The position numbers and the translations under genes were made by a program. Under the pieces are notes generated by a model. It was not told where the DNA came from and did no database searches. It saw only the letters and a program-made list of their open reading frames with translations. Positions 31,130 to 43,184 of a stretch of DNA of 64,000 bases are shown piece by piece. How positions within the stretch are numbered: position 1 is the stretch's first letter; the number at the start of each line of letters is the position of its first letter. The DNA comes from Streptomyces erythrochromogenes (GTDB taxonomy: Bacteria; Actinomycetota; Actinomycetes; Streptomycetales; Streptomycetaceae): the NCBI RefSeq assembly GCF_036170895.1, contig NZ_CP108036.1, positions 7,351,501-7,415,500 of the forward strand, read 5' to 3'.

Positions 31130-32107
31130 ATGGAAGCCGGAAATCGCGACGGCATAGTCGTATCCCTTCACGAAATCTCGAAACACTACGGCAGTCGCAA
31201 AGCGCTGGACGGGGTTGGCTTCGATATCCGTGATGGAGAAGTGTTCGGTCTGCTCGGTCCGAATGGAGCAGGGAAGACCACGCTCCTGGAGTGTCTGACG
31301 GGTCTGCGCCGACCGACCGCAGGCTCCGTCAGAGTCCTGGGCCACGACCCTGGGTCACGCGCGCCGGAGCTGAGGAGACTCATGGCGGTGCAGCCGCAGG
31401 AGGCAGCGCTGTTTCCGCAGCTGTCGGTTCGGGAGACAGTCGACCTCTGGGCCTCCGTCTACGGGGACCACGAGCGGGTCGACGAAGTCCTGGACCGTGT
31501 CGGCCTGGCGGCGCAGGCGTCCCAGCGCGTCAAGGCACTGTCCGGCGGGCAGGCCCGACGTCTGCTGCTGGCCGTCACCGTGATCGGCCGTCCGCGCCTT
31601 CTCGTTCTGGACGAACCGGCTGCCGGACTCGACCCGCAGGCCAAGGAACACCTGTGGGACGTCATCCGGAAGCAGCGCGAGGCCGGGGGCACCGTGCTGC
31701 TCACGACGCACGACATGAACGAGGCCACGGAGCTGTGCGATCGGGTGGCCGTTCTCGTCGGTGGGCGCATCGCGGCGTGCGACACACCTGCTCGACTCGT
31801 GTCGGCGCTGGCGTCCACCAGCACGGTCACCTTCACGACTCCGGCAGGGACGGACCTCGGGTCGCTCGACGCCCTGCCCGGAGTGACCGCCGTCGAGGTC
31901 AAGCAGGAAGCGGAAGGGCGCCGGTCCGTGCAGTTGCGCACGACCGACGCTGACCTGACGCTGCGCCGCATAGCGGCAGACGAGCGATTGGTCGCCTCGG
32001 ACCTCGACATCAGCAGGGGCGGGCTCGACACGGTGTTCCGCAGCCTCGCCACGGAGAGCGCAGGCAGCCAGGAGGCAGCCCGAACCAAGAAGGAGGTGAC
32101 TGAGTGA
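31130..32107 (+). CDS. RiPP operon ABC transporter ATPase
   Basis: A 325-residue DrrA/CcmA-type ATPase with Walker A LLGPNGAGKTTLLE, Q-loop (MAVQPQEAALF), signature LSGGQARRLLLA, Walker B LLVLDEPAAGLDPQ and H-loop LLTTHDMNE, plus a C-terminal domain of about 100 residues. It should power export of the mature peptide or give self-resistance together with the next gene. The ATG at 31130 was chosen because homology starts soon after (VSLHEISKHYGSRKALDGVG); the ribosome binding site is weak (GGAAAG). Its stop overlaps the permease GTG. It is the first gene of the RiPP operon. Confidence 0.93.
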   Translation: MEAGNRDGIVVSLHEISKHYGSRKALDGVGFDIRDGEVFGLLGPNGAGKTTLLECLTGLRRPTAGSVRVLGHDPGSRAPELRRLMAVQPQEAALFPQLSVRETVDLWASVYGDHERVDEVLDRVGLAAQASQRVKALSGGQARRLLLAVTVIGRPRLLVLDEPAAGLDPQAKEHLWDVIRKQREAGGTVLLTTHDMNEATELCDRVAVLVGGRIAACDTPARLVSALASTSTVTFTTPAGTDLGSLDALPGVTAVEVKQEAEGRRSVQLRTTDADLTLRRIAADERLVASDLDISRGGLDTVFRSLATESAGSQEAARTKKEVTE

Positions 32108-33144
32108 ACGCGGCACCCTCCGCACTGCGGGAGATGGTCAAGACCAACGCGCGAGAACTGTTCCGCGACGGCAAGACCGCCTTCTTCACCGTGCTCTTTC
32201 CGCTGCTCTTCCTCGCGATGTTCCTGGGCCTCGGGGCGCTCACGGCCGGAGGCTCCTACCGGATCGCCGTGGTGGACTCACCGGAACAGCAGACGTTCGT
32301 CAACGAGTTGGCGCAGGTCGAGGGATTCCATGCAGAGCCCTGGAAGGGGTCGGGACCGCTCCCGGCCGGCGAGCTGGGCGGCTATGACGCGGTTGTCGCC
32401 GTCTCCGGGGGACAGGCATCAGTGGTCGTCGACGCCTCGAGGTTCGGCGCACTGAAGGGTTTGCGGTCCGCGCTCGCCGCAGGTGGGGTCGACGATTCCC
32501 GCACCGACTTCCGCACCCCGGACGGCGGTGTGCCCTTCGACCCGCTCAAGGCGGCACTGCCCACCGGCCTGCTGATGGCGCTGATGTCGACGGCCTTCTT
32601 CGGCACGGCAACCCCCTTGATAGCCCTGAGGACACGTGGAACCTTGCGGTTGCTGGGGACCACACCGCTGGGCCGATTGACCTTCGTACTGGCCCAGGCC
32701 CCGGTCCGGCTGGCTCTCGTCGTCGTCCAGCTGGTCATCCTGGGCATGGTCGCCGTCGCCATGGACTTCATGTCCCTCGCCGACACCCTGCGGCTGATGG
32801 GCACAGGTCTACTCGGCGCGATCATGCTGTTCGCCTTCGGCTATCTGATGGCGGCCCGCCTGCGCAACGCAGAGGTGGTCAACGGACTGTTGGGCCTGCT
32901 GATGCCGGTACTGCTCTTCTTCAGCGGACTGTTCCTGCCCCTGAGCATGCTGCCGTCCGTCATCACGACGGTCTCCGACGCGCTGCCCACCACATATCTG
33001 GTGGACGCCTTCAACCACGACCTCAACGAGGCCGCCTCCGTGCACAGCCTCACCACCGACTGGCTGGTCCTCCTCGCCGCGACGGCTGTCTTCGGTGGGC
33101 TCGCCGCCCGTCTGTTCCGATGGGACCAGGGAGAAGACCGATGA
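32104..33144 (+). CDS. RiPP operon ABC-2 type permease
   Basis: A 346-residue ABC-2 permease with one N-terminal membrane helix (TVLFPLLFLAMFLGLGALTA), an extracytoplasmic loop of about 130 residues, then five helices (GLLMALMSTAFFGTATPLIA to LVLLAATAVFGGLAARLF). It is the membrane partner of the ATPase before it (GTGA overlap) and overlaps the YcaO gene after it (ATGA). Tight coupling on both sides supports a dedicated exporter or immunity pump for the cluster's peptides. Confidence 0.92.
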   Translation: MNAAPSALREMVKTNARELFRDGKTAFFTVLFPLLFLAMFLGLGALTAGGSYRIAVVDSPEQQTFVNELAQVEGFHAEPWKGSGPLPAGELGGYDAVVAVSGGQASVVVDASRFGALKGLRSALAAGGVDDSRTDFRTPDGGVPFDPLKAALPTGLLMALMSTAFFGTATPLIALRTRGTLRLLGTTPLGRLTFVLAQAPVRLALVVVQLVILGMVAVAMDFMSLADTLRLMGTGLLGAIMLFAFGYLMAARLRNAEVVNGLLGLLMPVLLFFSGLFLPLSMLPSVITTVSDALPTTYLVDAFNHDLNEAASVHSLTTDWLVLLAATAVFGGLAARLFRWDQGEDR

Positions 33145-34475
33145 ACGCACCCGCCCTGCAGGCCGGCCTCGGCCGACTCACCGACCTCGACGCCCTCGTG
33201 GGCCCCTACGGCCTGGTGGAACGGACCCACCGGCTGCCCAACCACCCCGGGGACCCGCGGTTCCCGATCTTCTCCGCATCGCTCGGCGACCTCGCCCAGG
33301 CCGTCGACAACATCGCCGAGTCCACCCGCGGCCGCAGTGCCCGCGGGGAAATGGACGGCGCCGGCGGTGCCGTCGATCCTGAGCGTGCGGCCCGCCTCAG
33401 CGTCGCCGAGGCCTTGGAGCGCTACTCCACCTCCGTCGTCCAGCCGGACGGCGTGGTCTGGGCGACGGCGGAAGAACTGGGCGACGAAGCACTCGACCTG
33501 ACGACGATGCCTCGCTGTTCTCCGGCGGAACTGGCCCACCCCAGGGCCATCACGGTCGATGTCGACACCAAGGCACCGATGCGCTGGGTACGGGGCTGGT
33601 CCCTCACCGCGCGGAAGACCCAGTGGGTGCCCGCCGTGGGTGTGTGGATGCACATCCCGCCCCTGTCCCGGGCGGAGCGGTACGCGAATCCCATTTCCAC
33701 GGGCTGCGCCACGCATACCGACCTGGCGCAGGCTCTCGTGAACGCGGTGTGCGAGGTCGTGGAGCGCGATGCCATCGCACTGACCTGGTACCAGCGCCTG
33801 TCGCTGCCGCGGATCGACTTCGACGTCGTGCCGGAGAACCTGGCGCCGTTCCTGGAGAAGTCACGCAACAGCCTCGTGGAGACCGCCTTCTTCGACGCGA
33901 CCACGGACCTCGGGATCCCGACGGTGTACTCGGTCGACCTCTCGCCGCACAACGAGGTGCTGGGGCAGATGGTCATGTGCAACACGAGCCTGGACCCGGT
34001 CGACAGCGTTGCCAAGATCGTTCGGGAGTCGGCATCCTCACGCATCGCCATGCAGGTGCCGCGCGAGATGCCACCGTCGGTGGACGACTTCCTGCACGTC
34101 TTCCACGGGGCTGCCTACATGGGCCGACCGGAGCGGAGGCCGGACTTCGACTTCCTGCTCGAAGGCGACGCCCGCCGGCCCCTCAGCGAACTGCCTGTGC
34201 TCACCACCGGCGACAGCGGGCAGGACCTGGCCTTCCTCGTGCAGCGGTTGAAGCGGGCCGGATGCGACGTGATCGCCGTGGAGTGCACGACGGACGAGGC
34301 CCGCGACGTCGGATTCCGTGTCGTGCGCGTCATCATTCCGCAGCTCATGCCGCTGTCCTTCACGCATCGTGCCCGCTACCTCGCGCACCCCCGGCTGTAC
34401 GAGGCGCCGGCCCGGATGGGCCTCCCCGTGCACGCGGAGGCGGACATCAATCCGCATCCCCAACCCTTCGCCTGA
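33141..34475 (+). CDS. YcaO-family cyclodehydratase
   Basis: This 444-residue YcaO enzyme uses ATP to activate peptide backbone amides so that Cys, Ser or Thr side chains form azolines. Family landmarks are a central ATP-binding block (ERYANPISTGCATHTDLAQA, then LVNAVCEVVERDAIALTWYQ) and the Pro-rich C-terminus HPQPFA (PxPxP type), which completes the active site in azoline-forming members. Its partner proteins for leader binding are the next two genes. The ATG at 33141 overlaps the permease stop. Confidence 0.95.
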   Translation: MNAPALQAGLGRLTDLDALVGPYGLVERTHRLPNHPGDPRFPIFSASLGDLAQAVDNIAESTRGRSARGEMDGAGGAVDPERAARLSVAEALERYSTSVVQPDGVVWATAEELGDEALDLTTMPRCSPAELAHPRAITVDVDTKAPMRWVRGWSLTARKTQWVPAVGVWMHIPPLSRAERYANPISTGCATHTDLAQALVNAVCEVVERDAIALTWYQRLSLPRIDFDVVPENLAPFLEKSRNSLVETAFFDATTDLGIPTVYSVDLSPHNEVLGQMVMCNTSLDPVDSVAKIVRESASSRIAMQVPREMPPSVDDFLHVFHGAAYMGRPERRPDFDFLLEGDARRPLSELPVLTTGDSGQDLAFLVQRLKRAGCDVIAVECTTDEARDVGFRVVRVIIPQLMPLSFTHRARYLAHPRLYEAPARMGLPVHAEADINPHPQPFA

Positions 34476-34500
34476 CGATCCGACGAGCAGGTCCATTTAC

Positions 34501-35226
34501 ATGAATGGGAAGCCAATGACCAAGGTGCACGTGCTCGCCGTCGGCGGGTTCGGTGAGGCCGTCGCTGATCGGCTGCGCCGTGAACGCGATGACCTGGAGG
34601 TCTCCACCGACCGGGCCGGTTCTCTGGAGCTGTCCGCGAGCTGGCCCGAGGCAGCCCTGCGCATCCTCGCCTCCTGGCGGGAGACACCGCGACTCGCCGA
34701 GTTGCTCGACGCCCGGTCGGCCGACTGGGGCACCCCGTGGTTCCCCGTCCTCGCCGAACACCCCCGCTTGCGAGTGGGCCCGGTGGTCGTCCCGGGTGCC
34801 GGCGCCTGCTACCGCTGCTTCCGCAAGCGCCGTTCGCAGCACGAGCGGGACGCGGCGCACGTCGCGACCCTGCACGCGCGTTACGACGCCTCGCCCGAGG
34901 ACGGCCCCGGCGGGTTCCTTCCCCACCACGTGGACATGGCCGCGGGGATGGCCCTGGACGTGCTGCGGCGGTTCGACGCGGGTGAAGGCGAGCTCTTCGC
35001 CGGCACCGTCCGTCACTGGCACCTGCTGGAACAGCACCTCTCCGGGGGGCGCGTGGTCGCGGTGCACGCCTGTCCCCGGTGCCGCCGGCGCAGGGAGGTC
35101 CCGGCCGAGTCCACCTGGGCGGACCTGGCCAGGGACCTGACACCCCTGCTGACCCCCCTGGACGAGGGCGCGGTCTCCACTCCGGACGGGCCTCCGGCCC
35201 CGTCGTCGACTTCCGCTCGTCAGTGA
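34501..35226 (+). CDS. E1/ThiF-like TOMM partner protein with two CxxC motifs
   Basis: A 241-residue protein with an N-terminal dinucleotide-fold start (VHVLAVGGFGEAVADRLRRE) and two Cys pairs, GACYRCFRKRR (about 101-104) and HACPRCRRRRE (near 199-202). Together these probably hold a structural Zn2+, as in E1-like proteins of azole RiPP clusters. Such partners present the precursor to YcaO and stimulate it. It lacks the catalytic Cys and full ATP site of true ThiF enzymes. The ATG at 34501 lies 26 bp after YcaO; an in-frame ATG at 34516 is an alternative. It is likely the short partner of the longer protein encoded next. Confidence 0.8.
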   Translation: MNGKPMTKVHVLAVGGFGEAVADRLRRERDDLEVSTDRAGSLELSASWPEAALRILASWRETPRLAELLDARSADWGTPWFPVLAEHPRLRVGPVVVPGAGACYRCFRKRRSQHERDAAHVATLHARYDASPEDGPGGFLPHHVDMAAGMALDVLRRFDAGEGELFAGTVRHWHLLEQHLSGGRVVAVHACPRCRRRREVPAESTWADLARDLTPLLTPLDEGAVSTPDGPPAPSSTSARQ

Positions 35227-35235
35227 GGTAGTGCC

Positions 35236-36909
35236 TTGGCCGACAACAAGCTGATCTCCGCAGAGGAGATGCGCCGCGCAGTCGCGCAAGACCCCCAGTT
35301 CAGCGCCCCCGAACGGCCCGCCCTGTGCCGCGGCCTGGTCGTTGTGCCCTTCGCCGACGGGATCCTCGTCGAAGGCGCCCCGACCCGGCAGGTCCTGCGG
35401 GGAGCGGCGGCGCGTGACCTGGCAGCGAGGGTGTTGCCGCTCCTCGACGGAACGAGGGACGTGGCGCAGCTCGCGCAGCAGACGGACGCGCCGGTGCAGC
35501 ACATCGAACAGGTCGTCGCGCTCCTGTACACCTGTGGACTCCTTGAGGAGGGGGCGGGTGACGACGGGGTCGACGATCCTGCCGCCGTGTTCTGGTCACG
35601 GAGCCTTGACTCCACCCGCGTCAACCGCAATGCGGCCGAGGCGATGAAGCTGCTGACCGGCACTCGGGTGGCTGTGGTCACCGACGGCGGGACCGGAGAA
35701 CGGCTCCGGGACGCCCTGTCGGACAACGGGTTCGGCGACGTGGAACTCGTCGATTCGGCCGCCGCTCTCAGCGGTGTTCCAGACCTTCTCGTAGCGGTTG
35801 ACGAAGGCGGTCGTTCGGAGCTGGGTGAGACCGCACGGTGGTGCGCCGCCCGCGGCGTACCGATGCTCCCCGCTCACCTCCACGGCGCAATCCTGGACTT
35901 GGGCCCCTACATCGATCCGGGGTTCACCATCTCCTTCGGCGAAGCGGACCGCCAGCGCAGGGCGCACCCGCCGGAGGCCCGCCCCGAGGCCGCCGGCGGC
36001 AACGCCGTGCACACCATGGCCACAGCCCTGATCACAGGTCAGGTGACGGCCATCGCGAGCAGGGTCGGCGCCGTGTCCGTGCTGCGCGGCATGGTCCGAA
36101 CCGACCTGGAGTCATGGCGTCAGGACATGTACGTCATGGCGCCGGTACCGGACCACACGGATTCCCGGTCCTCCCTGACGGCGGCGGACGTGCCGCTCGC
36201 CCTGGCCTTCGAGACGTCGGTCGCCTTCCCACCGCGGAAGCTGCTCAACCCCCGCGACCACCAGATGCACTACAAGCCCGGCAATATCGCCCTGCAACAC
36301 GAGAGCAAGCGGTGGCCGAGCGCCCGCACCCTCACACTTCCCCGGACGGGGATCCACCCGCAGGCTCCGTTGGAGCCGTCCGGGACCGCGTCGGCCGGCC
36401 AGGTCGGCCTGGCCCATCTCGCATCCCTGCTCCTGCTCGCCGTCGGGCGGCAGGAGGAATCGGCGCCGGGCCGCCCCAGTGTCCCCCGATGGGCGCCCAC
36501 CGGCGGTAATCTGGGCTCCGCCAATCTGCACGCCGTGGTCCGCGACGTCGAGGGGGTTCCGGCCGGCTTCTGGGGGTACGACTCGGCAGCCCACCGGCTG
36601 GCCCGGCTGCCCGATGCCGTGGACCCCGCCCGGGTGTCCGGTGCGGACGCCGCAGCCACACTCGTCCTCACCGGTTCCCTGGCCCGGGTCGCATCGAAGT
36701 ACTCCACTTTCGCCTGGCGCATCGTGCACCTCGACGGCGGAGTGGCGATCGCCCAGCTGGCGCACGCGGCGCGGTCCTTCGGGCTCCGGGCCCGGCCCCT
36801 GGACCGGTGGGACGACCTGGCTCTCGCCGCCGCATTCGACCTCGACCTGGACGCCGAGCCCATCACCGGCGTCGTGGAACTCCGACCCTTCATCGCAGAC
36901 GAGGCCTGA
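35236..36909 (+). CDS. Fused leader-binding E1-like/SagB-type dehydrogenase
   Basis: A 557-residue protein with two parts. Residues 1-100 look like a RiPP recognition element (GLVVVPFADGILVEGAPTRQ, winged-helix end VVALLYTCGLLEE), followed to about 330 by an E1-like fold (GTRVAVVTDGGTGERLRDAL). From about 335 a nitroreductase/SagB-like flavoprotein fold follows (RWAPTGGNLGSANLHAVVRD; FAWRIVHLDGGVAIAQLAHA). It would bind leaders and oxidise azolines to azoles with FMN. It starts at TTG with AGGT upstream, 9 bp after the previous stop. Fusion of these activities in one chain is less usual than separate genes. Confidence 0.85.
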   Translation: MADNKLISAEEMRRAVAQDPQFSAPERPALCRGLVVVPFADGILVEGAPTRQVLRGAAARDLAARVLPLLDGTRDVAQLAQQTDAPVQHIEQVVALLYTCGLLEEGAGDDGVDDPAAVFWSRSLDSTRVNRNAAEAMKLLTGTRVAVVTDGGTGERLRDALSDNGFGDVELVDSAAALSGVPDLLVAVDEGGRSELGETARWCAARGVPMLPAHLHGAILDLGPYIDPGFTISFGEADRQRRAHPPEARPEAAGGNAVHTMATALITGQVTAIASRVGAVSVLRGMVRTDLESWRQDMYVMAPVPDHTDSRSSLTAADVPLALAFETSVAFPPRKLLNPRDHQMHYKPGNIALQHESKRWPSARTLTLPRTGIHPQAPLEPSGTASAGQVGLAHLASLLLLAVGRQEESAPGRPSVPRWAPTGGNLGSANLHAVVRDVEGVPAGFWGYDSAAHRLARLPDAVDPARVSGADAAATLVLTGSLARVASKYSTFAWRIVHLDGGVAIAQLAHAARSFGLRARPLDRWDDLALAAAFDLDLDAEPITGVVELRPFIADEA

Positions 36910-36912
36910 CCC

Positions 36913-37662
36913 ATGCAGACGACGTCACCGCTCCCCGCGCTGTTGGAACACAACGAGCTGATGCGGAACCTCCAGCTGCGTTCACGCCTCGACGCGGCAG
37001 CCCTCAGGGCGGAGCCCGCCGCGCCGGACACCGCGCTGCGCGGAACGCTGCGGTCCGCCGGTGAGGGGAAACACCTGGTTCCCGCCGGGATCGCACCCGC
37101 AGGTACGGAACCCCTGGAATCCCTGCTGCGCCGCCGGGCATCGGTACGCACCTACGCGCCGCGGCCCGTCGCAGCCGACGTGCTCGCCGCCGTCATCGAC
37201 CGCGCCGCGACATTCGACCGCGAGGCGTGGCACGACCACGACGCGGGGGTCGAACTGGAGTTCCTCGTGGCGGCACGTGACGTGGCCGGACTGCCCGTGG
37301 GGCTGTACCTGTACTCCCCGGCGGGGGGCGGGTTCACCCGCCTCTCAGATCTCCCCGCCGGCGACGCGGCCGCAGAACTCGTGCTCCAGCTGGAATTCGC
37401 ACACGCGCCCGCGATCGTCATGGTGTGCGGACCGCTCGCGGCGTCCTTGGACCGCCACGGCGAACACGGCCACCGGCTGCTGCTCACCCGGGCCGGAGCC
37501 GCCGCCCACACCGCCTGGCTCACCGCTCTGGACCGGGGCCTGGTCGGCAGCATCTTCGCCGGCTTCCTCTCCTCGGCCCTCAAGCCGCTCGTGCCGGTCG
37601 ACGGCTACCGCAGCGCACAGCTGCTGGCGTTCTCCTGCGGCCATGCCGCACAGGCCGGCTGA
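36913..37662 (+). CDS. SagB/nitroreductase-like FMN oxidoreductase
   Basis: A 249-residue flavoprotein of the SagB/nitroreductase type. The FMN-binding start is LRRRASVRTYAPRPVAADVL. The middle reads LYLYSPAGGGFTRL, and the family end is RAGAAAHTAWLTALDRGLVG. It lies 3 bp after the fused protein, so the operon has two dehydrogenase-like domains. One may be the active azoline dehydrogenase and the other structural, or they may act on different residues. It is the last gene before the precursors, with a 121-bp gap that could hold an internal promoter. Confidence 0.88.
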   Translation: MQTTSPLPALLEHNELMRNLQLRSRLDAAALRAEPAAPDTALRGTLRSAGEGKHLVPAGIAPAGTEPLESLLRRRASVRTYAPRPVAADVLAAVIDRAATFDREAWHDHDAGVELEFLVAARDVAGLPVGLYLYSPAGGGFTRLSDLPAGDAAAELVLQLEFAHAPAIVMVCGPLAASLDRHGEHGHRLLLTRAGAAAHTAWLTALDRGLVGSIFAGFLSSALKPLVPVDGYRSAQLLAFSCGHAAQAG

Positions 37663-37783
37663 CACCCCGAGACCACGGGCGCACACCACACCAGACTCCG
37701 CACTCCGGAAGGGGCGCGGCTCCCATCGGCGGTTCCCGCAGCTGCGGCCGCCGGTCATCCATCACACAAGAACGGAGGGCGTC

Positions 37784-37957
37784 ATGCCCAACGACATCGA
37801 CCTCGCGATCGACCTGTTCGCCGAGGACACCACCGCCCTGACGGTCGACGAGCTGCCCAACGACTCGTCGCTCGCCTCGGTTTCGACGGCCGGCACCTTC
37901 GGCTGCCTTCTCGGCTCCACCGTCGCCACCGCCGGCACGGCCAGCTCCCAGGGCTGA
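37784..37957 (+). CDS. RiPP precursor peptide 1
   Basis: A 57-residue peptide with a strong ribosome binding site (ACGGAGGGCGTC). The leader holds the acidic motif IDLFAEDTTALTVDELP, shared with the next two small genes. The C-terminal half is Ser/Thr/Gly/Ala-rich (ASVSTAGTFGCLLGSTVATA, ending GTASSQG) with one Cys at 41. Ser, Thr and Cys there are potential sites for azoles and dehydroamino acids. The leader/core boundary is not marked by a clear protease motif; it lies somewhere after residue 25. Confidence 0.9.
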   Translation: MPNDIDLAIDLFAEDTTALTVDELPNDSSLASVSTAGTFGCLLGSTVATAGTASSQG

Positions 37958-37995
37958 GCTCCGCTTCCAACCCGCCTTCACGAAAGGACATTCCA

Positions 37996-38172
37996 GTGGG
38001 AGAGACCATCAACCTCGACCTCTTCGCCGAGGACATCACCAGCGAGCTGACCGCCGAGGTCCTCGACAACGCGGCCCTGCTGGGCACCTGGGGCTCGATC
38101 GGCACGTTCGGCAGTGCCACCTGCCCCGCCTCCACTGCCTCGACCGGCGGCAGCGCGTCCTCGTCCGGCTGA
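37996..38172 (+). CDS. RiPP precursor peptide 2
   Basis: A 58-residue peptide starting at GTG after AAAGGACATTCCA. The leader motif is INLDLFAEDITSELTAEVLD. The probable core ALLGTWGSIGTFGSATCPAS then TASTGGSASSSG has a single Cys at 43 and the only Trp among the three peptides. GTFG is shared with peptide 1; ALLGT and CPA are shared with peptide 3. Tandem precursors under one enzyme set should give a family of related products. Confidence 0.9.
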   Translation: MGETINLDLFAEDITSELTAEVLDNAALLGTWGSIGTFGSATCPASTASTGGSASSSG

Positions 38173-38231
38173 TCAGCTTCCCGACCGCATCTGCGTCCGG
38201 GAACCACCGAAACCCTACTGAAAGGAACATC

Positions 38232-38411
38232 ATGATGAACACGCTCAACCAGGACGTGATGGCCATCGACCTGTCCGTTGAGGACATGACGGTCGAGACG
38301 CTCGGCGACAGCGCCCTGCTCGGCACCGCCGCCTCCTTCGGCACCGCTGCCTCCGCCAGCTGCCCGGCGGCGTGCTTCGGTACCGCCAGCTCCGCCTCCT
38401 CGGCCGGCTGA
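38232..38411 (+). CDS. RiPP precursor peptide 3
   Basis: A 59-residue peptide with GAAAGGAAC before two adjacent ATG codons (38232 and 38235). The leader motif is AIDLSVEDMTVETLGD, slightly diverged from the other two. The core ALLGTAASFGTAASASCPAA then CFGTASSASSAG carries two Cys (44 and 48). All three peptides end in a Ser/Gly-rich tail. The hairpin at 38442-38482 follows directly. Confidence 0.9.
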   Translation: MMNTLNQDVMAIDLSVEDMTVETLGDSALLGTAASFGTAASASCPAACFGTASSASSAG

Positions 38412-38441
38412 CAACCGAACCGCTGACACCTGGATGAAGAC

Positions 38442-38482
38442 GCTGTCCGGCCGGCACTGGCTCAGAGTGCCGGCCGGACAGC
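38442..38482 (+). terminator. Strong hairpin between precursors and downstream enzymes
   Basis: A perfect 17-bp inverted repeat, GCTGTCCGGCCGGCACT (38442-38458) and its complement (38466-38482), has a 7-nt loop. It lies 30 bp after the third precursor stop and 30 bp before the M50 gene. There is no T-run, which is usual for streptomycete terminators. As a partial terminator or 3' stabiliser it would favour precursor over enzyme expression. Confidence 0.75.
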
Positions 38483-38512
38483 GGCCCCAGCATTATCCCT
38501 CAGGAGCCATTC

Positions 38513-39688
38513 ATGCGATCACCAGCCGCGGCCGATCACCAGCAGCAAGCCGTGCCAGAAAGCAGCGAAGCGGCGACCAAGGAGAAGAGCAGCGCGGACA
38601 CTGCGTGGCTCGAGACCGAGCTGCTGGCCGTGCGAGACACCATCGAACTCACGGACGGCCTCGACGGCCGTCCCCTCCTGTTCGACTCCGACACCGGCAA
38701 GTACGTGGCGGTGTCCAAGGCGGGCACCGTCATCCTGACGCTCCTCGACGGCGAGACCACCGCCCGTGGCGTGGTGCGCCGGGTGGCCTCGCCGTCCGCC
38801 GACCCGGTCCGCGCCGAGACCGCTGTCATCCGGTTCCTGACCGAACTCCGCCAGGCCGGGGTCCTCACCCTCGAACCGCAGGAGGAAAAGCGCCGGGAAC
38901 GGGTCCTCAAGTACTCGCTGCGGCAGAGGATGCCGCGCAAGCCGTTGACCCGTTCCGTCCACATCCTGCTCGAACCCGTCGCCAAGGTGCTGCAGAAGCT
39001 GCCCGTACCCGTGGTGGTCGGCATGTGGATCCTGCTGACGGGCGCGGGCCTGGCCACGGCGGGGTACGCCCTTGCGACCCGGAGCCTGCCGGACTACACG
39101 GTTTGGTCCGGGATCGCGGCGCTCCTGCTGATCCTCCAGATCGCCGTCCACGAGCTGGCGCACGCCCTGGTGTGCCAGTCCTTGCGGGTCCCGGTCCGGG
39201 AGGCAGGCATCACCCTCATGCTCTATGTGATGCCCGTGGCGTACGTGGACCGTACGGACGCCTACCGGGTGCGGGGCCGCGCACCACGCGCCCTCATCGC
39301 GCTCGCCGGACCCATGAGCGACGCCATCTGGGCGGGAGCCACCGCTCTCGTCCTGCTGCACACCAGCGGGACCGTACACGAGGTCGCCGGCGCGCTGCTG
39401 CAACTGCAGGTGCTGCTCATGATCGTGAACCTCAATCCGCTGCTTCCCTCGGACGGATACCACGCACTGGAGTCCGCCATGGGCTCCGTCAATCTCCGCG
39501 GCCGGTCCTTCGCCTTCCTCGTCCACCTGGCCACGAGGGCCCCGCTGCCCAGTCACCTGCTCGTAAGCAGCAAGCTCAAGCGTGTCGGCTACTGCGCCTT
39601 CGGCGTCCTGTGCGCTCTCTACGGAGTGTTCATGGTCGGGGTCGTCCTGACGTGGTGGTGGCACCTCATCGAAGGGCTCCTCGGATGA
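38513..39688 (+). CDS. PqqD-like domain fused to an M50-type membrane metalloprotease
   Basis: A 391-residue protein. Residues about 45-125 form a PqqD/RRE-like winged helix (PLLFDSDTGKYVAVSKAGTV, ILTLLDGETTARGVVRRV) that could bind leader peptides. From about 155 it is a multi-pass membrane protein with the zinc motif HELAH in VHELAHALVCQSL and a second M50 site NLNPLLPSDGYHAL, where Asp is the third ligand candidate. M50 enzymes cut within or near membranes. Here it could remove leaders during export, or serve as a receptor. The stop overlaps the LanB ATG. Confidence 0.85.
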   Translation: MRSPAAADHQQQAVPESSEAATKEKSSADTAWLETELLAVRDTIELTDGLDGRPLLFDSDTGKYVAVSKAGTVILTLLDGETTARGVVRRVASPSADPVRAETAVIRFLTELRQAGVLTLEPQEEKRRERVLKYSLRQRMPRKPLTRSVHILLEPVAKVLQKLPVPVVVGMWILLTGAGLATAGYALATRSLPDYTVWSGIAALLLILQIAVHELAHALVCQSLRVPVREAGITLMLYVMPVAYVDRTDAYRVRGRAPRALIALAGPMSDAIWAGATALVLLHTSGTVHEVAGALLQLQVLLMIVNLNPLLPSDGYHALESAMGSVNLRGRSFAFLVHLATRAPLPSHLLVSSKLKRVGYCAFGVLCALYGVFMVGVVLTWWWHLIEGLLG

Positions 39689-42303
39689 CTCCCCTCCCGA
39701 CCGCGCCCCAGCTCCGGACGACACCGGACGCCACACCACCGGCTGCCGCGCGGCGTGCGCAGCCCGGGGCCCGCGCCCGGGGCGGGCGGAGCCCAGTGGT
39801 CTCGGCGTGGGCGGTTCACCGCGTCAACAGGCTGCCCGTGGAGACGCTGGACCTCGCCCTGGCCCGCACCTCGGACTCACTGCGGCGCGAGACGGAGTTC
39901 GAGGAGCAGCTCGCCGAGCGGGCCGACTTCCTCACCGATGCCCTGCACGCCGCTGTCCCGACGCTCGACGATGCGCCGCACCTCCGTCGCGCGGTCCTCA
40001 AGCTGCGCCGCTGCATACACAACGGCCGACCGGTGCAACTGTCGGAAGACATCATGGCGGGGCTGCGCGAAACGCTGGGCGGCCCGGCGGCCCTCGCGCT
40101 GACGGACTGGCTTCACGGTATGCGCGACCTCTCCGCACTGCGCGAGCGGACCGACGCCCTGTACGAAGAGGAGCGCGGGCGGGCCACCGGACGCCTGCGG
40201 GAAGTCCTCTCCGATCCGGTCTTCGCCCAGGGACTCGCACAGGCGAGCCCCCATCTGCTGGACCACGTGACGGCCAGGCCGCTCGAACCGAACAGCAAGG
40301 CTGCCCGTTCGGTGCTCGGCTACGTCTCCAGGGCTGCGGTGAAGACCAGTCCGTTCTCCCGGCTGACCGCGTTGGCCCTGGAGGGTGGGGAAGCGGACGG
40401 AACCGGCCACAGCTACGTCGATCAGCAGCACGTCCGTGCCTGGCTGGACACCCTGGCCCGCGACAAGCGCTTCGCCGCAGCCTTCCAGGTCGAGCCCAAC
40501 AGGTCGTTGCGCCGACCGGGCGGACGCGCGTACCTGCTGACCCCTGCCCACCCCGGTCCGGGCGAATCCGCCTGGCGCACGGATTCGATCGCCGACGCCT
40601 CCCGCCATGTCGAGCTGATCGGCGCCTTGGCCTCGTGGCCCCGCATGACGATCGCCCAGGCCCTCGTACGCATCGGGGGCAGAGACCCGTTCGGAGGGTT
40701 CCTCAGACTGCTCGACACCGGGCTGCTGCAGCTCGTGCTCCCCTGGACGGCAACGGAACCGCACCCCATCCGTTCCCTCGCACGGAGTCTGCAGTGCCTT
40801 TCCGACCCGGTCGCGCGGCGCACCCGTGCGCTGCTGGAGGACCTCGGGAAGGAGGCGGCGGGACTCCACCTGCTCTCCGGGAGCGAACGCGCCCGATCGG
40901 TCAACCGACTTGCCGCACGCATCGGCTCCGGCACTGCGGACGATCCGCGGCCCGCCATCCCCTACGCCGCATACGAGGACGCCCTGTCCGACGTCCCGGC
41001 GGACCTGCCGGCCGAAGCCGTCCGGGAGGACCTCGCCGAGCTGGGCCGTCTCCTGCGCCCCTATGTCTTCCGCTCGCACGTCTACGACTGGCTCCGGGAC
41101 GAGTTCGTGGCCCGGTACGGCGCCGGCGGGCACTGCCCCGACCTGTTCGAGTTCCTCTGGGCCGTCGCGGCATCTCCGGGGTTCGAGGCGAACCTCTACC
41201 GAGCCCTGCAGAAGGACCACGGGGAGTCGGGACGCCCCACCGAACGCGCGTGGCTGCCCGTGTCCGCGTCAAGCGCGCCGCCGACGGCAGCCGTGCTGTA
41301 CCAGGTCGCAGCACGGTCTGCCGACGCTGTCCGCAGTGGCGACTACCGGATCGTGGTGAACCAGTACAACTCGGGAGTGGGCGGGCTGCTCGCGCGCTTC
41401 CGCCACCAGCTGGACGGCCCGACTGCCGACCGCGTCGGGCTCACCCGGCACCTGCGGCACTGGATCGCGGAGCTGTTCCCGCACGCCGCACCGCGCCAGC
41501 TCACCCTGTCCGGTGACGTGAACGGGATGCACCGCGCTGCCGATGGTGTACTGCCGGCGTTCCGCTGGCCGGGGGAGCCCTCCCACGCCGGCGAGGCCGT
41601 GCACGAGGCGGCGCCCGCGACCATCAGCCACTGCCCGGACACGGACACGCTGGAGTTCGCGGACGGCACCGGTCGCGCACTCGCGCCCGTCTACCTCGGC
41701 GTCGTGCCGCAGCACCTCATCCCAGGCGTCGCGCGGTTGCTGCTGTGCCTCGCCGACCCGTGGATCAACGGATCCCGGTTATGCTGTACGCCGAACCCGG
41801 TGGACGGCTCTCCACCCGTCACCGGCGAGGACGTAGAAGTCGTCCCGCGCAGGGTTCACGACCGCCTGGTCCTCGGACGCCGTACCTGGCGGATCGCCCC
41901 CGAAGCCCTGCCCCAGCCGACCAAGGGCGAGCAGCCTTCGGCCTACTTCCGGCGGGTGCACCGGTGGCGCATCGGCCTGGGCCTCCCGGACGAAGCGTTC
42001 GTGTCCGTCGAATTCCCCTTCACGGCGGCAGGAGTGTCCTCCTCCCGGAGCAAGCCCTTCTGGCTCTCCTTCCAGAGCCCGCACGCGATCTGGGCGGCGG
42101 CGAACCACATCGGCAAGGCGAAGGACGCGACGGCCGTCCGGCTCGCCGAAACGTGCCCGGACCGCTCCGCCTACTGGCTGCGGGACGACAGCGGGAGCCG
42201 CCGGGCGGCAGAACACGTCTCCCTGCTGCGCTGGCAGCGCCCCTCACGGCATGCCCGGCCCAACGGTGAGCCCGAAACCCACAGCGCGGAGGCGAGCTCG
42301 TGA
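39685..42303 (+). CDS. LanB-type dehydratase, glutamylation protein
   Basis: An 872-residue protein with the lantibiotic dehydratase N-terminal fold: RAAVKTSPFSRLTALALEGG around 215, FRSHVYDWLRDEFVARYGAG near 465, and YRIVVNQYNSGVGGLLARFR around 555. These enzymes transfer glutamate from Glu-tRNA to Ser and Thr side chains. The protein is shorter than full LanB (about 1000), and its elimination domain is the separate next gene (GTGA overlap). This is the split arrangement known from thiopeptides and goadsporin. ATG 39685 overlaps the M50 stop. Confidence 0.92.
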   Translation: MTPLPTAPQLRTTPDATPPAAARRAQPGARARGGRSPVVSAWAVHRVNRLPVETLDLALARTSDSLRRETEFEEQLAERADFLTDALHAAVPTLDDAPHLRRAVLKLRRCIHNGRPVQLSEDIMAGLRETLGGPAALALTDWLHGMRDLSALRERTDALYEEERGRATGRLREVLSDPVFAQGLAQASPHLLDHVTARPLEPNSKAARSVLGYVSRAAVKTSPFSRLTALALEGGEADGTGHSYVDQQHVRAWLDTLARDKRFAAAFQVEPNRSLRRPGGRAYLLTPAHPGPGESAWRTDSIADASRHVELIGALASWPRMTIAQALVRIGGRDPFGGFLRLLDTGLLQLVLPWTATEPHPIRSLARSLQCLSDPVARRTRALLEDLGKEAAGLHLLSGSERARSVNRLAARIGSGTADDPRPAIPYAAYEDALSDVPADLPAEAVREDLAELGRLLRPYVFRSHVYDWLRDEFVARYGAGGHCPDLFEFLWAVAASPGFEANLYRALQKDHGESGRPTERAWLPVSASSAPPTAAVLYQVAARSADAVRSGDYRIVVNQYNSGVGGLLARFRHQLDGPTADRVGLTRHLRHWIAELFPHAAPRQLTLSGDVNGMHRAADGVLPAFRWPGEPSHAGEAVHEAAPATISHCPDTDTLEFADGTGRALAPVYLGVVPQHLIPGVARLLLCLADPWINGSRLCCTPNPVDGSPPVTGEDVEVVPRRVHDRLVLGRRTWRIAPEALPQPTKGEQPSAYFRRVHRWRIGLGLPDEAFVSVEFPFTAAGVSSSRSKPFWLSFQSPHAIWAAANHIGKAKDATAVRLAETCPDRSAYWLRDDSGSRRAAEHVSLLRWQRPSRHARPNGEPETHSAEASS

Positions 42304-43184
42304 AGGACCCTCTCCTGCAGGCGGACTGGTGGTACGCACGTCTCTACCCCGGCGGACTCGACCACTTGGACCAGGCCGTTGTCCGGTGCTTGCCGCCTCT
42401 TGTCGATCTCGCCCAGGAACTCGGTGCCGACCGGTGGTTCTTCATCCAGTACACCGACTGGAAGGGCCCACACCTCAGGCTCCGGATCCACGGCGAGCGC
42501 GACACGGTGGACCGGCTCCACAGAAGGCTCCCGCGGATCGCCCTCGACCTCGAAGTACTCGCCCGCGAGTCCGTCCCGAGCCGTGGCGCCCTGGTCCCGT
42601 TCGAGTCGGGCCCGTTCAGCGGGTGCCACGCCGGCGTCGCAACGGCTCTCTACGAACCCGAGGAGGGAAAGTACGGAGGGCCCCTGGGGACCGAACTCGC
42701 AGAAGAGGTCTTCCAGCACTCCAGCGACCTCGCCCTGTGGGCCGCAAACCTGCAGCGCCACCCCGACCGCGCAGCCCTCGCGACACTGTTGCTGCGCGCC
42801 TCGGCAGCTGCCCTGCAGGAGCACGTCACGGGTACCGACACCGCGTGGTTCTGGGAGCGCCACCTTGCCTGGTGGACCCATGACGGCGGACGAGGTGCCG
42901 CAGAACTCCGTACCCGTCTGCGGACGTGCGCCGCTACCGACGAGCCGGGAATCCGCAGCCGAGTTGCCGAGTTGGCGCATGATCCGGAAGTGCGGGTCCG
43001 CCTACGGGCCTGGACCGAGGTGCTGTCCGCCTACCTCGGGAGGGCCGCGGCCGGCCAAGTTCCCTACAGCGCGGGGCACCTGGTGTTCCACCAGGCCCAC
43101 ATGATGTGCAACCGGCTGGGAGTGCTTCCGCGAGAGGAGGCCCTCCTCGGGATCCTGGCAGCCGAGGAACCCGGTTTCACCTGA
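42300..43184 (+). CDS. SpaB_C/thiopeptide-type elimination protein
   Basis: A 294-residue stand-alone domain of the LanB C-terminal/thiopeptide type. The start LLQADWWYARLYPGGLDHLD and the block WFFIQYTDWKGPHLRLRIHG are the family signature. It should eliminate glutamate from glutamylated Ser/Thr to give dehydroalanine and dehydrobutyrine. Related proteins catalyse the pyridine-forming cycloaddition of thiopeptides. Because only one such protein exists here and the LanB lacks the domain, elimination is the likelier job. It is the last gene of the operon. Confidence 0.9.
   Translation: MKDPLLQADWWYARLYPGGLDHLDQAVVRCLPPLVDLAQELGADRWFFIQYTDWKGPHLRLRIHGERDTVDRLHRRLPRIALDLEVLARESVPSRGALVPFESGPFSGCHAGVATALYEPEEGKYGGPLGTELAEEVFQHSSDLALWAANLQRHPDRAALATLLLRASAAALQEHVTGTDTAWFWERHLAWWTHDGGRGAAELRTRLRTCAATDEPGIRSRVAELAHDPEVRVRLRAWTEVLSAYLGRAAAGQVPYSAGHLVFHQAHMMCNRLGVLPREEALLGILAAEEPGFT

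Follow-up and report, generated by a model that had tools for sequence, protein, structure and literature searches.

A twelve-gene operon of Streptomyces erythrochromogenes with a triplet code in its predicted azole-peptide cores

The operon and its genes

What kind of peptide might be made by an operon that joins YcaO-type azole chemistry to a split LanB dehydratase? The stretch of DNA analysed here, 64,000 nucleotides from the 8.6-Mb genome of Streptomyces erythrochromogenes and hereafter called the window, carries such an operon on its + strand at positions 31130-43184, twelve genes running left to right from an ABC transporter pair to a SpaB_C protein. Our main new result is a substrate code in the cores of its three precursors, and we consider it likely that the operon makes three linear goadsporin-type peptides bearing azoles and dehydroamino acids. 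The genes are as follows.

31130..32107, + strand: ABC transporter ATPase (DrrA-like); PF00005, 116.6 bits
32104..33144, + strand: ABC-2 permease (DrrB-like); PF12698 and PF01061 over cut-off
33141..34475, + strand: YcaO cyclodehydratase (D protein) with C-terminal PHPQPFA; TIGR03604, 295 bits (cut-off 219), and PF02624
34501 or 34516..35226, + strand: E1-like partner, leader-binding type of the thiazole/oxazole-modified microcins (TOMM); TIGR03882, 56.6 bits (cut-off 36.9)
35236..36909, + strand: RRE domain, E1-like domain and SagB half (RRE-E1-SagB), 557 residues; KY pair kept, RRxSxR motif missing
36913..37662, + strand: SagB2, probable complementary nitroreductase half; PF00881 positions 1-166 of 167; RRRASVR kept, KY missing
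37784..37957, + strand: precursor P1, 57 amino acids; ribosome-binding site and start, core parse, orthologues in loci L005, L006 and L011
37996..38172, + strand: precursor P2, 58 amino acids; orthologues, triplet parse, codon changes
38232..38411, + strand: precursor P3, 59 amino acids; orthologues, triplet parse, codon changes, 16 database relatives at E <= 0.1
38513..39688, + strand: PqqD-like domain and M50 intramembrane metalloprotease; PF05402 and PF02163 over cut-off, alignment across relatives
39685..42303, + strand: LanB-type tRNA-Glu-dependent Ser/Thr glutamylation protein; PF04738
42300..43184, + strand: SpaB_C glutamate-elimination protein; PF14028 and TIGR03891

All genes named in an initial annotation of this DNA were recovered on the + strand, with the same coordinates and domains, by an open-reading-frame check and Pfam and NCBIfam profiles. 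Its description of the junctions as mostly 4-bp overlaps was too strong, since only four of the eleven overlap in this way, the other seven having gaps of 3 to 121 bp. Scores exceed the Pfam or NCBIfam cut-offs for YcaO, E1, M50, PqqD, LanB and SpaB_C as well as for both ABC proteins, Pfam giving no match for the E1-like protein at 34501..35226. For the ATPase, a role in export or self-protection is what we infer.

A triplet code in the precursor cores

When named genomes were scanned, the best 80 of 129 matches yielded 79 loci, and all 79 were mapped alongside the window. Gene layout sets apart 41 of the loci, the window and 40 others, as window-type. In these, the three forward frames were searched for small peptides with a ribosome-binding site and a second half rich in Ser, Thr, Cys and Gly, filters that make all resulting counts lower bounds. 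At least 131 precursors (126 distinct) were found, one to six per locus, with a single Cys-Pro in 117, none in 6 and several in 8.

When the 86 distinct cores with a single Cys-Pro are aligned on its Cys, S/T/C residues fall at -12, -9, -6, -3, 0, +4, +7, +10 and +13, with frequencies in this order of 94, 100, 100, 100, 100, 93, 93, 94 and 92%. One residue past each code position the frequency is 1-12%, with 22% at +14 and 0 at +1, the latter being Pro by construction of the alignment. Pooled over the code positions, S/T/C make up 96.2%, against a mean of 58% and a maximum of 62% in 1,000 within-core shuffles in which the Cys at 0 was held fixed. Neither period nor phase of the code was chosen. 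All nine positions are filled in 77 of the 86 cores, against at most 3 in the shuffles. The code is thus a spacing of three with one phase shift, and the cores can be parsed as a block of five triplets and a block of four, separated by a single spacer residue and as a rule followed by one more residue at the end, which brings the length to 29. The cores of the window are predicted as follows.

P1, 37874-37954: ASV STA GTF GCL LG STV ATA GTA SSQ G; 8 azole sites
P2, 38083-38169: GTW GSI GTF GSA TCP A STA STG GSA SSS G; 9 azole sites
P3, 38322-38408: GTA ASF GTA ASA SCP A ACF GTA SSA SSA G; 9 azole sites

With the cores assumed here, the grammar accounts for every S/T/C in P1 and P3 and leaves one spare Ser in P2; P1 is without the SCP triplet. 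Outside the aligned set, eight peptides from Actinomyces loci with a single precursor divide into 10 to 14 triplets without any shift, and the precursors of the Anoxybacillus and Paracoccus plasmid loci described below tile too, one Anoxybacillus peptide needing a shift. In several of the single-precursor Actinomyces loci (L035-L037, L039-L044, L054, L059), the nine residues SCP ASA ASA, or a variant of them, are repeated.

The precedent for such a grammar is goadsporin. According to the goadsporin study (PMC5303826), it is the middle residue of an X1-(S/T/C)-X2 tripeptide that becomes the azole, with one swapped mutant giving an azoline elsewhere; lengthening the core by further triplets raises the number of azoles, to as many as twelve; X1 must not be Glu, Arg, Tyr or Trp, nor X2 Glu; and the two dehydroalanines (Dha; S4 and S14) depend on the azoles after them and on the whole core. 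The 86 distinct cores follow the X1-(S/T/C)-X2 pattern: X1 is S, G, T, A, F, N, M, Q or C and never E, R, Y or W, while X2 is never D or E. Exceptions lie outside these cores, namely SCE and STE in Actinomyces, STE in Anoxybacillus and DCL in Paracoccus. The initial annotation had proposed peptides with azoles and Dha or dehydrobutyrine (Dhb) from three cores; with cores that obey the goadsporin motif, this is the best reading.

That the precursor genes are not chance frames is shown by orthologues at the same place in other genomes and by core changes that are mostly synonymous in the closest loci. For P3, the window differs from L005 by 1 synonymous and 0 non-synonymous changes and from L006 by 2 and 0; for P1, it differs from L006 by 7 and 0. 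Against L011, the synonymous and non-synonymous counts are 8 and 6 for P1, 7 and 1 for P2, and 10 and 3 for P3, and P2 against L007 gives 11 and 6. From these codon comparisons, the cores look conserved among the closest loci, with more distant pairs changing more.

The dehydratase pair and the protease

A stand-alone LanB glutamylation protein together with a stand-alone elimination protein is a goadsporin-type feature, and both are found here. The best solved relative of the LanB protein is the goadsporin protein 9jhq (E 1.1e-58), followed by 6ec7 (E 5.6e-17), which we take to be TbtB; together with the motif in the cores, this bears out the comparison with goadsporin drawn in the initial annotation.

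The SpaB_C protein could in principle act otherwise, as a pyridine synthase of the thiomuracin kind, which closes a macrocycle by [4+2] reaction of two Dha and releases the leader; the product would then be a thiopeptide or pyritide. It matches TIGR03891, a 'thiopeptide-type' family, and NCBI already names such precursors 'thiocillin family RiPP' (ribosomally synthesized and post-translationally modified peptide). Its structural model (predicted local distance difference test score 93) fits both elimination domains and pyridine synthases to a similar degree, TbtD and PbtD matching nearly as well as MibB, so that residues and the single gene copy, rather than the fold, decide its role. In sequence, it aligns best to the MibB elimination region (E 2.7e-11, versus 0.21 for TsrE). 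The motifs HxRxR, PExxKYG and HMxxNR are kept across the 41 loci, the last reading HI in some; in the MibB alignment, by chain index, HxRxR retains NisB Arg784 and Arg786, and the His of HMxxNR matches a MibB His in a weak second segment. This His is presumably NisB His961. At the position of NisB Arg826, the window protein has a Lys, K124, that is invariant in 34 aligned rows. Among the nine operon proteins to which our Pfam and NCBIfam scan was confined, there is one SpaB_C protein and no second candidate [4+2] enzyme; were it the pyridine synthase, no enzyme would remain for the elimination that makes Dha. Moreover, the P2 and P3 cores open at -13 with Gly rather than Ser, and an M50 protease would be superfluous if the leader were expelled by the pyridine synthase. 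Since elimination-type residues are kept, a thiopeptide is unlikely, and we regard it as very improbable overall; by residues and gene count, the pyridine synthase identity was rejected, and the SpaB_C protein is best taken as a putative elimination protein. For precursors of this linear type, the NCBI name 'thiocillin family RiPP' seems mistaken.

LanB and SpaB_C proteins are also the two halves of lanthipeptide dehydratases, and class I lanthipeptide-like chemistry, in which Dha and Dhb react with cysteines and azoles are rare or missing, has to be weighed. However, no LanC match was found among the same nine operon proteins, the other frames of the window lying outside the scan; the window cores hold one or two Cys each, all on azole positions of the grammar; and the YcaO, E1 and SagB genes are conserved across the operon family. 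We give this alternative hardly any credence.

The PqqD-M50 protein, with the motifs HELAH ... NLNPLLPSDG, is likely the leader peptidase. It scores 124 bits against the daptide M50 protease family NF041824, well under the curated cut-off of 300.

A probable split azoline dehydrogenase

Library profiles are weak for both SagB parts. The SagB part of the protein at 35236-36909 stays under the cut-offs of PF00881 (20.0 versus 23.5 bits) and TIGR03605 (60.8 versus 78.4), and SagB2 passes only PF00881 (37.2 versus 23.5 bits); their assignment therefore rests also on family alignment and modelling. In the second type of locus described below, profile matches place the two SagB halves in a single open frame in 36 of 39 loci, and the modelled SagB pair of the window superposes on one solved two-domain nitroreductase. 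These two observations make it probable that SagB2 is one half, now split off, of a two-domain dehydrogenase.

The sequence motifs of the two halves are complementary. For SagB2, a clean profile was made from 35 rows, leaving out L010, L012 and L013, whose picked sequence fell within the RRE-SagB frame, and L009, L017 and L018, which had an early start; a loose motif pattern had matched 22 of 41 rows with these six wrong picks still included. KY is absent from SagB2 in all 35 clean rows. Among the 23 rows from outside Actinomyces, the Arg motif fits one pattern in 11 and reads RR(S/A)xR or, in L007, RDRVAVR in the other 12; the 12 Actinomyces rows never have the last Arg (RRSS only). In the partner RRE-E1-SagB protein, a chance RTVSDR occurs in one of 40 rows (L043).

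The initial annotation had listed a second SagB-like protein. The gene is indeed there, and its product is better read as half of a two-domain enzyme than as an extra, independent modification enzyme. An independent oxidoreductase, acting on another site or precursor rather than as a heterodimer half, would agree with SagB2 having its own gene and start and keeping an FMN-binding-type (flavin mononucleotide) N-terminal motif, and with the looser fit that Foldseek itself gives for the SagB pair on 3eo7 (root-mean-square deviation 8.8 over 491 columns). It is disfavoured by the fused halves in related loci, the modelled pair and the complementary motifs, and we think it unlikely.

Distribution and genomic context

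The LanB search returned 50 relatives, and most of the named close ones are from Streptomyces. All seven core enzymes are present in 38 of the 41 window-type loci; of the incomplete ones, L015 and L040 start at the edge of a contig, and in L054 the LanB frame is split in two. These loci come from Streptomyces, Planobispora, Planomonospora, Streptosporangium, Nonomuraea, Sphaerisporangium, Kitasatospora, Nesterenkonia and Actinomyces, and in many mapped loci an ABC pair adjoins the operon on either its upstream or its downstream side. The rarity implied by the initial annotation did not survive the scan: operons of this kind, M50 protein and all, are present in 40 further fetched loci. With an M50-like match in 41 of 41, the PqqD-M50 gene is nothing out of the ordinary for such operons.

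Within the genus, matches to the SpaB_C protein at E 1e-20 are patchy: 7 of 199 genomes have one, counting that of the window, and identity in the other six is 35 to 81%. This is a count for SpaB_C alone, with the rest of the operon outside the check. In a sample of the phylum, the family alignment picked out 4 of 396 genomes, again with the window's own, a figure that may be low as six candidates were scored per genome. The plasmid collection held two matching records. On pDSM15939_1 of Anoxybacillus amylolyticus (Bacillota; L088), the order from YcaO to SpaB_C is identical and the ABC pair follows the operon; this operon is complete and lies near comX and skfA/skfB genes. On pAMI4 of the alphaproteobacterial Paracoccus aminophilus (L089), the set is rearranged, with a fused 780-residue SagB-SagB2 protein, and a YcaO/TfuA pair is among the neighbours.

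A second locus type comprises 39 loci (L023, L030 and L045-L083 minus L054 and L059) that have LanB and SpaB_C. Two YcaO genes are present in 18 of the 39, and 15 of the 17 in which peptides were found have near-contiguous S/T/C cores.

Around the operon in the window, kdp genes lie upstream on the opposite strand and a PNPOx-type gene downstream, as seen in ten chosen frames, and both are taken to lie outside it. A promoter scan gave 0 sites, with 0.4 expected. Elsewhere in the same genome, outside the window, three more YcaO genes lie close together at C1:875753-888546, probably another RiPP locus.

Several peptides per locus

Are the three precursors partners or variants? A closer core exists in another locus group than beside it for 102 of the 111 precursors with comparable partners, the groups having been set by us. 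In a stricter test by taxonomic family, assigned from genus names with the window placed by its relatives, 95 of the 111 cores are closer to a core of another family than to their own paralogues, 6 are equal and 10 worse. This cross-family likeness suggests, from comparison of the cores, that distinct peptides have been kept together over long times as a conserved multi-peptide set. It suggests, though it does not show, joint action, as shared descent of whole operons could also yield such likeness.

The opposite view, that the precursors are redundant variants of a diversified library with no joint action, has close to an even chance of being right. It accords with the single precursor in 11 of 12 Actinomyces loci and in Kitasatospora L024, these counts being lower bounds, and is opposed by the 95 cores nearer to another family than to the paralogues alongside and by the mostly synonymous changes among the closest loci. 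Another Actinomyces locus, L032, has at least four precursors.

Discussion

Gene content, motif conservation, the triplet grammar, the pairing of SagB halves in other loci and core conservation are computed results. The scheme they point to would run as follows, its reaction order, exact ring sites, protease role, export and product activity being predictions. The RRE domain of the RRE-E1-SagB protein would bind the acidic leader, and YcaO with its E1-like partner would cyclise the middle S/T/C of every X1-(S/T/C)-X2 tripeptide. Joint oxidation by RRE-E1-SagB and SagB2 would turn the rings into thiazoles and (methyl)oxazoles, of which P1 would carry 8 and P2 and P3 would carry 9 each. LanB would then glutamylate, and SpaB_C eliminate from, Ser or Thr at X1 ahead of an azole, giving up to 3 Dha/Dhb in P1, 4 in P2 and 3 in P3. 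For the cores as assumed, the monoisotopic masses are predicted to be 2240.93 for P1 with its 8 azoles, falling to 2186.90 with 3 Dha; 2368.86 for P2, falling to 2296.82 with 4; and 2285.81 for P3, falling to 2231.78 with 3. Finally, the PqqD-M50 protease would cut off the leader and the ABC pair would export the products.

A close known system is that of goadsporin, the product of the god cluster of Streptomyces sp. TP-A0584. It shares the X1-(S/T/C)-X2 grammar, Dha at Ser before an azole, the split LanB and the lack of a [4+2] enzyme. It differs in its single precursor, whose 19-residue core receives six azoles, whereas the window has three precursors with cores of 27-29 residues, and in its fused cyclodehydratase (PMC4603692), whereas YcaO and E1 are separate genes here; the window operon in turn has the split dehydrogenase and the M50 protease. 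Neither the acetyltransferase GodH nor the peptidase-transporter GodB had a Pfam or NCBIfam match in the nine operon proteins, the ABC ATPase being judged on the best 25 of 194 NCBIfam families and the flanks on ten chosen frames. The predicted chemistry is thus of a known, goadsporin-like kind, while the gene set, with no fused cyclodehydratase, GodB or GodH found, appears to differ.

Other relatives are informative to different degrees. The spongiicolazolicins A and B of Streptomyces sp. CWH03 are described as linear peptides of 29 and 28 residues, P2 and P3 as cut having 29, and their modification pattern is reportedly very similar to blocks of Dha/Dhb-azole-residue tripeptides; judged by length and this block pattern, they may be characterised members of the present operon family. 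The name was not among the 120 of 462 relatives listed. The coryneazolisins of Corynebacterium, as outlined in PMC4603692, share YcaO, lanthipeptide-like dehydratases and the lack of a cycloaddition enzyme, but have two YcaO proteins and cores of near-contiguous S/T/C, unlike the window. They thereby resemble our 39 second-type loci more, a likeness that is only a lead, since no Corynebacterium locus was among those fetched. Thiopeptides such as thiomuracin and lactazole have YcaO, SagB and split LanB in common with the window, the lactazole elimination domain being fused to a dehydrogenase; the window differs in having no separate pyridine synthase among the nine operon proteins, no expected macrocycle and an azole at every third residue, while the thiomuracin enzymes install successive azoles. 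The dehydrazoles (carnazolamide) have YcaO azoles and Dha before an azole, but use LanM-type DUF4135 dehydration, a proteusin leader and an S8 protease; with LanB in place of LanM, membership of the window in this class was rejected. We found no published description of this exact family in the open-access literature searched, and passages from papers on Planobispora rosea and on airway bacteria did not mention it.

At its most far-reaching, the family could be a cross-phylum class in which one enzyme set makes three to six different nine-ring peptides through an obligate heterodimeric azoline dehydrogenase, the peptides forming a conserved ensemble on a shared target, comparable to two-peptide lantibiotics with more partners. 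We put this forward as a speculative possibility.

The authors of the goadsporin study regarded motif-recognising azole installation as a unique example and believed that more could be discovered (PMC5303826). The operon family offers many candidates for it, from the nine genera named above and the Anoxybacillus and Paracoccus plasmids, with ladders of 8 to 14 triplets. Through the code, ring positions and masses become predictable from sequence; the split dehydrogenase would be a natural case of complementary half-sites; and the conserved sets of differing cores pose the testable question of whether these peptides act jointly.

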